64,000 nucleotides of DNA, from contig CAMHMH010000001.1 of assembly GCA_946186205.1 (NCBI GenBank), positions 1-64,000 on the forward strand, given 5' to 3'. Both the position numbers and the translations under genes were made by a program. This DNA comes from an uncultured Fretibacterium sp. Lineage in GTDB: Bacteria; Synergistota; Synergistia; Synergistales; Aminobacteriaceae. Under the pieces are notes generated by a model. It saw only the letters and a list, made by a program, of their open reading frames with translations, ran no database searches and was not told where the DNA came from. Shown piece after piece: positions 34,239-57,779 of this stretch (its first letter is position 1; the number at the start of each line of letters is the position of its first letter).

Positions 34239-34775
34239 TTAGCGTACTCTCATATAGACCGTGTCTGTAGTTCCATCGTACGCACTATCGTAATCTGTGG
34301 TCTGACTACCTGCCTCTCCAGTAACATTAGCTTTTTTGAAAGCTGCCGATGTTGCTTTGCTTGCAAGTATCTTGGCGACTTTTGAATTTGCTTCGGGAAG
34401 TTTGTATGACAACCACCACTGTTTATTAGTATCAACTGAAATGTTGTATTTTCCTACCGTTTCACTTCCTGCGGCTGCTGTCGTTATGATGGAGTTTTCT
34501 CCAGTAACATCCATCTTTGTGTAAGGACCTAAGCCAGTCTTAATTGTTCCGGCTAAAGTAGTGCCTCCATCTGATGCATCGCATGTGGTTCTGTTATCAG
34601 CGTAGTACATATTCATTGCCGCACCGATAATGTTAAACTCCTCAACGATTTTGTTTGCAGTTGCGATGTTGTTTGCCTCTGAACCTCCTACTACACCCAT
34701 TGCACTGAGAATACCGATTATTCCGATGACGATCAGCAACTCCACGAGCGTGAATCCTTTGCGTGCTTTCTTCAT
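34239..34775 (-). CDS. Type IV pilin / pseudopilin-like protein (cassette 1)
   Basis: Prepilin N-terminus RKGFTLVELLIVIGIIGILSAMG; RBS aggagg. Confidence 0.93.
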   Translation of the reverse strand: MKKARKGFTLVELLIVIGIIGILSAMGVVGGSEANNIATANKIVEEFNIIGAAMNMYYADNRTTCDASDGGTTLAGTIKTGLGPYTKMDVTGENSIITTAAAGSETVGKYNISVDTNKQWWLSYKLPEANSKVAKILASKATSAAFKKANVTGEAGSQTTDYDSAYDGTTDTVYMRVR

Positions 34776-35005
34776 GTGAATCTTTCCTCCTAATTATTTT
34801 TCCTTGTCTCATCCGCCGCCTATTACAGATGAGTCCTTCTTGCAGACTGATTACTGCAAAACCCTTTACGCTGTTACTTGTTACTTTGTGAAACGGAAAA
34901 ATTTTTTGCACACAACTAATTCACACATCCCCTTGCCTTTGTGATATAATCTCTCACAGAGACAAAGAAAATGCTCCGCACTAATTGTGTGCGTTTCCTA
35001 ATGAC
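34776..35005 (-). promoter_or_regulatory. Long structured 5' leader of pilin 1, with extended -10 TGCTATAAT on minus strand (plus 35012-35020)
   Basis: Hairpins ctcatc..gatgag (34808-34833) and ttgcag..ctgcaa; conserved with pilin 2 leader. Confidence 0.6.
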
Positions 35006-35037
35006 AAAAAAATTATAGCATAAACTTTGTCTTTTTT
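34957..35037 (+). ncRNA. Candidate small RNA opposite pilin 1 leader
   Basis: Extended -10 TGATATAAT at 34942-34950; AGACAAAG (34960-34967) pairs with CTTTGTCT (35025-35032) before U-tract; conserved at two other loci. Confidence 0.45.
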
Positions 35038-35138
35038 GTTATACCCTCACACAAATTTTTCACAAACATTTCTTGACGCTCTCAATCTCAGCACGTATAC
35101 TTTTCATCATCCAAATAAAATTTCAGGGACAACATAAT

Positions 35139-48192: not shown

Positions 48193-48723
48193 TTAGCGTA
48201 CCCGCATATACACAGTCTGGGCAGTGGCTACGTATAAGTTGTTCGTAGGATTGCTGCCCTCAGTAGCCGCCGGAGTCGATTCGGCATCTACTGCTGCATT
48301 TCTGAGACCTTCACTTGCTGCCTTGTTTGCGAGTATCAGTGCTACTTTTGTGTTTGCTTCAGGGAGCTTGTAGGATAACCACCACTGATTTGTTGTTGAG
48401 TCTATGCTGATATTGTATTTCCCGACAACTTCAGAGCCTGCTGTTTGTGTATCAATGCCATCCGTACTCTTCATGTATGCTGCTATACCCGTTTTGATGT
48501 CAGTAGCAGCGAAAGAAGAATTTGAGTCTATCGTTTTCCTGTTATCTGCGTAGAACAAATTCATTGCCCCGCCGATAACCCTCATCTCCTCAAGTATCTT
48601 GTTGGCAGTCGCTATGTTGTTAGCCTCTGAACCGCCAATCATAGCCATCGATCCGAGAAGCCCAATGATTCCGATAACAATCAATAACTCCACGAGCGTG
48701 AATCCTTTGCGTGCTTTCTTCAT
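48193..48723 (-). CDS. Type IV pilin / pseudopilin-like protein (cassette 2)
   Basis: MKKARKGFTLVELLIVIGIIGLLGSMAMIGGSEANNIATANKI. Confidence 0.93.
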   Translation of the reverse strand: MKKARKGFTLVELLIVIGIIGLLGSMAMIGGSEANNIATANKILEEMRVIGGAMNLFYADNRKTIDSNSSFAATDIKTGIAAYMKSTDGIDTQTAGSEVVGKYNISIDSTTNQWWLSYKLPEANTKVALILANKAASEGLRNAAVDAESTPAATEGSNPTNNLYVATAQTVYMRVR

Positions 48724-48954
48724 GTGAATCTTTCCTCCTGTGATTTCTTTCCTTCTTTCACCTGCCGCCTATTAACAGATGAGTCCTCTTGCAGAATGGT
48801 TACTGCAAACCCTTGACGCTTGTTGCTTGTGTTACACTTGAAACGGGGAAAAAATTTTTGCACACAACTAATTCACATAATCCCTTGCCTTTGTGATATA
48901 ATTTCCTCAGAGACAAAGAATATGCCTCGCACTAATTGTGTGCGCTTTCTTTAG
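48724..48954 (-). promoter_or_regulatory. Long structured 5' leader of pilin 2
   Basis: Closely similar to pilin 1 leader; hairpin 48759-48781 with compensatory change. Confidence 0.6.
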
Positions 48955-48988
48955 ACGAGAAAATTATAGCATATACTTTGTCTTTTTT
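48909..48988 (+). ncRNA. Candidate small RNA opposite pilin 2 leader
   Basis: TGATATAAT 48894-48902; AGACAAAGAATATGC (48911-48925) vs GCATATACTTTGTCT (48969-48983), 14 of 15 complementary, then six T. Confidence 0.5.
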
Positions 48989-49098
48989 GTTATGCCCTTC
49001 TCATAAATTTTTCACACTCAGATTTTCAGCAGACGATTCCGAATCACACGCGCAAATATCATCATCAACGTTATAATTCACGCAAAGGGGGAATCATC

Positions 49099-51618: not shown

Positions 51619-51947
51619 CGGGCAGTCCAGACGGCCGCCGAGTCATTCGGAGGAAAGTCCGGGCTTCACAGGGCAGGATACCGGGTAACGCCCGGCCGGA
51701 GCAATCCGAGGGAAAGCGCAGCAGAAAATACACAGCCATCAACACGGCAACGGTGAAAAGGCGATGGGTAAAAGCCCGCCAGTCATGGAGCAATTCATGA
51801 GCTTTGCAAGCCCTATCCGAAGCAAGATCTAATAGCGAAGGTTAAAGGTTGCCCGCCTGCTTCAGGGTACGATCGCTTGAGGAGTTCCGCAAGGAATGTC
51901 CCAGATAAATGGCCGTCATATACAGAACCCGGCTTACGGACTGCCCG
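51619..51947 (+). ncRNA. rnpB: RNase P RNA, bacterial type A
   Basis: gaggaaagtccgggcttc, ggtaacgcccgg, agataaatggccgtc...acagaacccggcttac; ends pair perfectly (CGGGCAGTCC/GGACTGCCCG, P1). Confidence 0.95.
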
Positions 51948-51973
51948 CCATTTCACGAAAGGTATATCACACT

Positions 51974-53650: not shown

Positions 53651-54220
53651 TTAGCGTACCTTCAGAGCGATATAGGCTGTAGCTCCGGCATCTTCTGTAT
53701 TATCATAGTCAGCCGTAAATCCGCAGTCGTCTGCCGCTTGAGCTGGTGCTGTCGTTGTGCCATAAAGCCCCGCTTCTGTTGCTTTATCTTTTAGTTTTCC
53801 TCTGACTGCTGTACTGTCATCTGTATCCATCGTATAGACAACATACCAGTGCTTGGCACTCGCTATTAAGCTGTACTTTGTGCCTAAACTCGCTTTGCCG
53901 AGATACTTTGAAGCCAGGAGTCCATTAGGCGTTTTTTTGTCATCATCACTTCTATTGTCGTCTCCCGTAGTAGGGGCAGCAACGATTGTAGTTGTTGTAT
54001 CGTTCAATGCAAATGCCCCCAGAGAAGCAGCTTTAGGTTCATTCATATACATGTCAAATGCTGCTGCCTTCATTGTCTGCAAGTTGTTCAGAATTGCACT
54101 CGCTGATGAAGCGTCAATTGACTCGGAACTTGATATTGCCATCATTGCCGATAGTGATGCCATAATCGCGATGACTATTAACAGCTCAACCAATGTGAAT
54201 CCCTTGCGCGTATTTCTCAT
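53651..54220 (-). CDS. Type IV pilin / pseudopilin-like protein (cassette 3)
   Basis: MRNTRKGFTLVELLIVIAIMASLSAMMAISSSE. Confidence 0.92.
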   Translation of the reverse strand: MRNTRKGFTLVELLIVIAIMASLSAMMAISSSESIDASSASAILNNLQTMKAAAFDMYMNEPKAASLGAFALNDTTTTIVAAPTTGDDNRSDDDKKTPNGLLASKYLGKASLGTKYSLIASAKHWYVVYTMDTDDSTAVRGKLKDKATEAGLYGTTTAPAQAADDCGFTADYDNTEDAGATAYIALKVR

Positions 54221-54372
54221 GATTTTTTCCTCCTTCTGATTTGTTACCCTTCTTGCTGAATCCTTGTTGCTTCCGTGTTTCTACCGTTTGCGCTCCTACA
54301 ACCAAACCACGCAATGAAAATTTTTTGCACACAACTATTTAACGCTCGCCCCTCCATGTGATATAATTCACA

Positions 54373-54442
54373 GTAGGACAAGTGTTTATTATGTGCATTT
54401 CAAGTCGACAATGAAATTATAACATAAAACCTTGTCTTTTTC
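54373..54442 (+). ncRNA. Candidate small RNA opposite pilin 3 leader
   Basis: TGATATAAT 54359-54367; GACAAG (54377-54382)/CTTGTC (54431-54436) then U-tract. Confidence 0.4.
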
Positions 54443-54556
54443 TTTATGCTTTCATAAATTTTTCATTCGCTTCACAAAAATATTTCACGTTCCCCGCTGT
54501 TGTATAATTCCCTCATTATTCACACATAATTTATTATCGGAGGTACTCAATCTTTC

Positions 54557-57152: not shown

Positions 57153-57779
57153 GTGTTACGCACCGTAAAGAAAAAAGGCTTTACGCTCATTGAGCTGTTA
57201 ATCGTAATTGTTGTGATTGGAGTCCTCGCGGCCATGTTAATGATGGCATCTTCCGAAATGGAATCGACAGCAAAAGCCGCTAAGATTATCAATGACTTGC
57301 GTGTGCTTCGTACTGCATTTCAGCACTGGTATTTTGACAACTCGGGGAATATACAGGAAGCGGCTTCTAATGCCTCGGACAAAGGTTATCATCTCGTGAT
57401 AGACGGAAAAGAGATAAGATTTCATGAGGCACTGAAATCAGATAATTACGGCGTGAAGCGTTATCTCGACAACTCTCACTTTAACCTCAATAACGGCAAA
57501 TCAGATGACTGGCAGAACATGTACGCGACAGTAGGGGGGTACTCAGTGTATTTGGGTTTCACTAATACAGTAGGCTATGTTGTGTACAGGATTTCGGACA
57601 AAAGCGACAATAGCGACTATTCGCGGCTAAGAGACAAGCTCAAGAGCAGGGCAAAGTCAGCAGGACTTGTTTACTACAATTACAACAGCGGCAAGCAGGA
57701 AGAATCAGCATACAACAGGGAAAACTTTGTGTGCATGAGAGCTTTTATTTTGGACGACAAAAACCTGAAAACTAAGTAA
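57153..57779 (+). CDS. Type IV pilin / pseudopilin-like protein
   Basis: KKKGFTLIELLIVIVVIGVLAAMLMMASSEMEST. Confidence 0.92.
   Translation: MLRTVKKKGFTLIELLIVIVVIGVLAAMLMMASSEMESTAKAAKIINDLRVLRTAFQHWYFDNSGNIQEAASNASDKGYHLVIDGKEIRFHEALKSDNYGVKRYLDNSHFNLNNGKSDDWQNMYATVGGYSVYLGFTNTVGYVVYRISDKSDNSDYSRLRDKLKSRAKSAGLVYYNYNSGKQEESAYNRENFVCMRAFILDDKNLKTK

Follow-up and report, generated by a model that had tools for sequence, protein, structure and literature searches.

A multicopy, covarying RNA module facing pilin and other surface genes in one bacterial genus, with a putative role in cis-antisense control

Three minus-strand pilin genes within a 64,000-nucleotide stretch of DNA from an uncultured Fretibacterium sp. 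(the whole stretch is called the window here) are each preceded by the same arrangement of sequence elements on the opposite strand, which raises the question of what faces these genes and what it might do to them. The original prediction had described, upstream of the first pilin gene, an extended -10, two complementary arms, an internal hairpin-like element and a U-tract, and had proposed that they form a self-closed plus-strand RNA of about 80 nt, antisense to the start of the pilin mRNA. All elements claimed for this first copy are present where it had placed them (Table 1), and their order does recur, as claimed, upstream of the pilins beginning at 48723 and 54220, the third copy having a closing stem of 6 bp plus one mismatch. 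The proposed RNA is supported by the sequence, while its transcription remains inferred.

Table 1. Features of the facing unit at the first pilin gene, and its two further copies in the window
Feature	Position	Strand	Remarks
Whole conserved unit, copy 1	34897..35063	+	Both facing promoters and A-tracts; span covered by BLAST to the genome's other copies
Model match, copy 1	34931-35047	+	81.3 bits
Helix PL, 3' strand, of pilin mRNA leader	34908..34916	-	GCACACAAC, which is GUUGUGUGC in the mRNA; upstream of the plus promoter
PL partner of 34908..34916	34984-34992	mRNA strand	Covariation and strand-specific wobbles
Possible -35 of antisense promoter, TTCACA	34920..34925	+	Sequence and alignment of copies; inferred
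Extended -10 of antisense RNA, TGATATAAT	34942..34950	+	TG.TATAAT in 140/143 copies
Predicted antisense RNA, ~80 nt, P1 closed by its own ends	34957..35037	+	Covariation, fold
U-tract of predicted antisense RNA	35032-35037	+	
P1 5' arm, AGACAAAG	34960..34967	+	Sequence, covariation
Internal hairpin GCAC..GTGC	34978..34992	+	34984-34992 doubles as code for the PL 5' strand of the mRNA leader
P1 3' arm, CTTTGTCT, then T-run	35025..35032	+	T-run behind P1 in 97/100 copies
Extended -10 of pilin promoter, TGCTATAAT	35012..35020 (complement)	-	ATTATA.CA in 131/143 copies
Predicted start of pilin mRNA	~35005	-	Inferred
Predicted 5' leader of pilin mRNA, ~230 nt	34776..35005	-	The antisense RNA can pair with its first ~49 nt
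Pilin 1 gene	34239..34775	-	N_methyl, PF07963
Copy 2	48883..48998	+	Upstream of pilin 48193-48723; 83.1 bits, E 7.4e-15
Copy 3	54348..54452	+	Upstream of pilin 53651-54220; 58.0 bits, E 1.2e-9

The three copies in the window are not a product of chance, since a covariance model trained on other copies places this plus-strand unit of about 120 bp at exactly those positions (E 7e-15, 2e-14 and 1e-9). The sole further match in the window lies on the reverse strand of one of the three (E 0.012). In each copy an extended -10 is followed by the 5' arm (6-8 nt further on in most copies), the pairing 3' arm and the U-tract. Conservation sets in about 35-45 bp left of the plus-strand -10, with an A-tract and GCACACAAC (34897-34916), and ends, in copy 1, near 35063; the spacer behind the possible -35 measures 19 in copy 1 and 17 in many copies. 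The interior of copies 1 and 2 consists of an AUGC/GCAU stem around the GCAC/GUGC hairpin and is shortened in copy 3. The predicted RNA of copy 1 folds at -17.6 kcal/mol with 8/8 P1 pairs present. A fourth pilin of the window (57153-57779, plus strand) has no facing unit, and any such control is therefore not common to all pilins; a promoter-like TGCTATAAT box lies at about 57098 ahead of this gene. The pilin leaders (34780-34870, minus strand, and those of the genome's other pilins) also contain common hairpin-like motifs, TTGCAGTAACCATTCTGCAA and CTCATC..GATGAG, in the stretch from the unit to the start codon.

The closing stem P1 is built from different sequences in different copies and still pairs. 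Among pilin-type copies its arms read GACAAAG/CTTTGTC, GACAAGG/CCTTGTC, GATAAGG/CCTTATC or AACAAGG/CCTTGTT, and 61 such copies yield 413 Watson-Crick cells and 7 mismatches; their 7 G-U pairs are valid on the plus strand and none is valid on the minus strand only, where shuffling gives 33 and 25. In an alignment of 43 pilin-type copies, 99.1% of the P1 and P3 cells are paired and 6 of the 13 pairs are altered on both sides (0/500 shuffles). The signal is carried further by 100 divergent copies, in which 94.7% of cells are paired and 12 of the 13 pairs, including 8/8 of P1, are altered on both sides (166 cells; 0/500 shuffles), and in which pairing is destroyed when the partners are slid. Two reservations apply, as the divergent alignment was fitted to the covariance model, so that its pairing percentage leans towards structure, and the shuffle tests do not correct for kinship among copies. 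An alignment of surface-type copies by MAFFT alone missed P1, as its 5' arms were misaligned; the covariance-model alignment did recover it. The complementary arms can also be read by eye in raw sequences, for example GAGTAAGA/TCTTACTC at L133, AGATAGAGG/CCTCTATCT at L135 and AAAGTGGGAT/ATCCCGCTTT at L142. The original prediction would have fallen had the copies shown no covariation and only the conservation expected of recent duplicates; the covariation of P1 across copies contradicts this.

Between the P1 arms lie two further helices, and single-sequence folding of 64 cores gives the P1-closed junction in nearly all. P2 shows a statistical pairing signal (a swap of partners costs 3.4 kcal/mol, z -16), whereas P3 (UGUGC/GCACA) covaries as P1 does and has 40 wobbles fitting the plus strand versus 14 fitting the other. 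For P1 the corresponding ratio in divergent copies is only 20:12, and the assignment of strand there therefore rests more on promoter spacing and on the T-run. TG.TATAAT stands ahead of P1 in 140 of the 143 copies, the 5' arm begins 6-8 nt past this -10 in 115/140, and at least five of the nine bases behind the 3' arm are T in 97/100. The natural reading of this spacing and T-run is thus a self-closed plus-strand RNA of about 80-100 nt; that the transcript begins and ends with P1 is inferred from sequence alone, without RNA data. As an intrinsic terminator P1 would be unusual, an A-U rich stem of 8 bp around 55-80 nt. The usual sequence criterion for a cis-antisense RNA, an opposite-strand promoter whose product overlaps the target transcript, is met as far as sequence evidence goes.

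The facing transcript appears to carry a fold of its own. An outer arm, GCACACAAC or ACACATGAC, lies upstream of the antisense promoter and finds its pairing partner, an internal GTYRTGTGC, solely in the transcript of the left-hand gene. This helix, PL, covaries: 92 copies contain 643 Watson-Crick cells versus 573 (sd 8) with shuffled partners, and 120 of their wobbles fit the mRNA strand versus 19 the other. G and T abound in the inner arm, so that transitions yield mRNA-type wobbles anyway, and the wobble count is therefore weaker evidence than the covariation. Pilin copies taken alone have consistent wobbles and little covariation, because their outer arm hardly varies. When RNAalifold was run unprompted, on the mRNA strand of 27 surface-gene copies alone, PL was the only helix that it returned. 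A hairpin termed PH, in which the promoter spacer pairs with the sequence complementary to the P1 5' arm, has a statistical pairing signal of z -9.7 on the mRNA strand and z -7.2 on the other. Both RNAs are thus predicted to be mirror-like junctions that have P2 in common and draw on sequence beyond the overlap for their closure, the transcripts themselves being inferred; the weak reverse-strand match in the window agrees with this picture. Across 115 copies the predicted overlap is 46-60 nt (quartiles), in leaders of 125-244 nt, and the start codon would lie some 70-190 nt downstream of the duplex. A leader switch that hides the start codon was considered and rejected, as blocking the overlap in a partition-function calculation on 115 leaders gave a predicted start-site accessibility of 0.502 versus 0.492 (p 0.29); the calculation thus lends no support to direct translational control by antisense binding. 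Mimicry of a PL strand by a CACATG at the start codon was likewise set aside, being found in only part of the copies.

The claim of three copies holds for the window, but the family is larger. In the host genome (2.75 Mb in 19 contigs, with 26 genes bearing the type IV pilin N-terminal motif) 13 copies are found by BLAST and 21 by covariance model at E<=0.001. A model of 121 positions, made from 43 copies nearly all of which precede pilins, detects the unit in 40 of the 43 genomes of the genus; four of these carry 21 to 37 copies each, the rest 1 to 9. Outside the genus, weak copies turned up in two genomes, both of a single further genus of the family, and this model detected no unit elsewhere among the 183 genomes of the order. 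Records that match unit sequences come from uncultured Fretibacterium sp. and Synergistaceae of goat reticulum and red deer. Two loci on different contigs, L168 (G000:C2:2723-2861) and L169 (C10:66013-66151), have equal scores and the same small secreted-protein gene, and could be a recent duplication or an assembly overlap.

The unit belongs to the gene on its left: this gene reads away from the unit in 119 cases versus 6, while the right-hand gene is found 64 times on the plus and 64 times on the minus strand, which also rules out a riboswitch or leader of the right-hand gene. The pilin context that had been claimed holds in part. In pilin-rich genomes about 58 of 64 checked BLAST-level copies precede a pilin, most of the others being cut by contig ends, but across the genus the majority of genomes have a different exported or envelope protein as the target. 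Such targets include GLUG, Listeria-Bacteroides repeat, bacterial Ig and C-type lectin plus LRR proteins, WavE lipopolysaccharide synthesis, a TylF methyltransferase, and a radical SAM plus PqqD gene with relatives in several genomes. A few others, e.g., TerD, mean that the term "surface" fits the majority and not every copy, and start sites were picked by script, so that some may be wrong. In six genomes (loci L185, L203, L208, L210, L225 and L227) the unit precedes a related gene with a long leader of about 180-256 nt; that of L203, the only one of the six tested, is radical SAM plus PqqD, possibly suggesting peptide maturation. At L133:1920-2026 the leader of ribosomal protein L20 matched below threshold (37 bits against a gathering score of 58.7). 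One orphan copy, L151 (G000:C2:478244-478362), has the second-highest model score of its genome (94.9 bits) and an intact promoter, stem and U-tract, with neither a pilin nor a surface gene on its left; it may be a trans-acting RNA. Nine host-genome copies including this orphan share 80-89% overlap identity with at least one other copy, which leaves room for cross-regulation in trans.

Taken together, the unit is a real, covarying and genus-restricted RNA module as far as structure is concerned; no RNA has been measured. Our main reading, to which we give a probability of roughly 0.6, is that it represents a multicopy family, new to description, of structured cis-antisense RNAs, which would pair with the 5' leader of surface-gene mRNAs and so hold them in check; transcription, stability, repression, the route of decay and trans action are its inferred parts. 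The unit would be a head-to-head promoter pair, in which transcription from the minus promoter yields the mRNA of the pilin, or elsewhere of another surface protein, and transcription from the plus promoter opposite yields an antisense RNA that is short and stable, with its start at the P1 5' arm and its end in the U-tract that follows the 3' arm. This RNA would form a three-way junction, closed by P1 and with arms P2 and P3, and the mRNA leader would form its mirror-like counterpart, closed by PL and with arms P2' and PH, partly from sequence outside the overlap. The two RNAs would be fully complementary to each other across some 46-60 nt at the 5' end of each, and pairing of the antisense RNA with the nascent leader would remove PL and P2' and lower expression, most likely by decay of the duplex (RNase III type) and in part by collision between the facing promoters, a contribution that is possible alongside antisense pairing. 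Each unit may then hold its own surface gene low for as long as the antisense promoter is active, with possible trans regulation between near-identical paralogues.

Among the alternatives, transcriptional interference alone survives best, and we consider it unlikely. Here a polymerase from the plus promoter would collide at the pilin promoter, the RNA being a by-product and P1 its terminator. The two promoters do face each other about 60 bp apart, both with an extended -10, and the P1 3' arm adjoins the pilin -10, so that every antisense transcript would cross the pilin promoter. However, collision needs none of P2, P3, PL and PH, yet all keep pairing, and a simple terminator would need no pairing with the very 5' end of its transcript.

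Much less plausible is the view that the inverted repeats are DNA sites and not RNA helices, either bound by a repressor or looping protein at CACATGAC/GTCATGTG or forming an invertible promoter bounded by GACAAGG/CCTTGTC. In its favour, the PL arms of surface-gene copies are the same 8-mer inverted around the plus promoter. In pilin copies, however, the two arms are not the same half-site, and intermediates are mostly RNA wobbles of the proper strand (120:19 for PL; 7:0 for P1 in pilin copies). An invertible promoter of the fim/Mpi type was rejected, as all aligned copies have one orientation relative to the outside promoter and the T-run, and the repeats, of only 7-9 bp, tolerate wobbles; rare inversions could be masked in consensus assemblies.

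Equally hard to sustain is a plus-strand RNA that acts mainly in trans, or as a 6S-like RNA, at an incidental location. The promoter-intact orphan without a surface gene and the similarity among the nine host-genome overlaps speak for it; against it, the unit stays linked to the left-hand gene, its overlap with the cognate leader is perfect by construction, internal sequences vary widely between groups of copies, and the Rfam searches gave no 6S match. That the units are functionless promoter duplications travelling with pilin copies, their structure due to chance, is all but excluded, as many pilin copies with near-identical units are indeed recent duplicates but compensatory changes affect all P1 pairs, in divergent copies next to unrelated genes.

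A bolder reading can be formulated, and as a joint claim we regard it as improbable: an RNA-built system of surface variation within one genus, in which up to 20-40 surface genes per genome would each have an antisense RNA and a mirror-folded leader, pilin paralogues would cross-talk, orphans would regulate in trans and only some of the proteins would be expressed at once. If the main reading is true, a new RNA family absent from Rfam would bring the genes for pilins, adhesins, lipoproteins and the envelope in an uncultured rumen genus under a shared logic based on RNA, in which every gene carries both its regulator and the folded target. More than 100 natural sense-antisense pairs would then be available to read compensatory evolution on both strands, and the choice of surface proteins in such bacteria would become directly testable. 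We speculate that the cell surface may be under dozens of such RNAs, none of which has been measured as a transcript.

How does the unit compare with known systems? The Rfam search suggested by the original prediction gave no family: a scan of the window with Rfam 15 found only RNase P RNA (class A, 51619-51951, plus strand, 268.8 bits), and there was no match at 34700-35100 at E<=1 nor, at E<=0.1, at the unit in nine divergent loci. A limited search of the open-access literature on non-coding RNAs of Synergistetes found no description of the unit. A type I toxin-antitoxin RNA, which would call for a small hydrophobic toxin ORF in the target, does not fit, as most targets are pilins and larger secreted or envelope proteins. 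Non-coding RNAs are known from the type IV pilin loci of Neisseria, namely an antisense RNA of N. meningitidis that starts 3' of pilE and covers the gene (PMC4402397), and a G4-associated sRNA near pilE of N. gonorrhoeae that acts in cis through the G4 in DNA (PMC3547852). These are single-locus systems, whereas the present RNA would be short, self-closed and confined to the leader, occurs in many copies and is not specific to pilins; no guanine-quartet motif was seen in the unit, by eye only.

The closest likeness is to the DonS-type RNAs, cis-antisense RNAs of Bacteroides polysaccharide utilization loci. A single genome has many of them, 78-128 nt long and forming one family, at its surface-protein (susC-like) genes; they are encoded divergently to their targets and are reported to lower target expression (PMC7366714). 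By this analogy, made without comparison of sequence or fold, the unit may work like a DonS-type regulator. We do not file it as a member because the defining target and the phylum differ: membership rests on location at susC homologues, and the targets here are N_methyl pilins, GLUG, lectin, Ig-like, LRR, WavE, radical SAM/PqqD and other secreted, lipoprotein or envelope genes. In addition, the promoters here face each other, the 5' ends of the two RNAs would overlap, and both partners have covarying closed folds. The unit also recalls the plasmid antisense pairs RNAI/RNAII and CopA/CopT, complementary structured RNAs in which the antisense RNA disrupts the leader fold of its target; the differences are a chromosomal location, up to 37 copies per genome, a 5'-5' overlap and no role in replication. 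The unit, whose RNA is itself unmeasured, would therefore be a new family of a known general kind, unusual in its copy number, in its targets and in the structure found on both sides of the pair.
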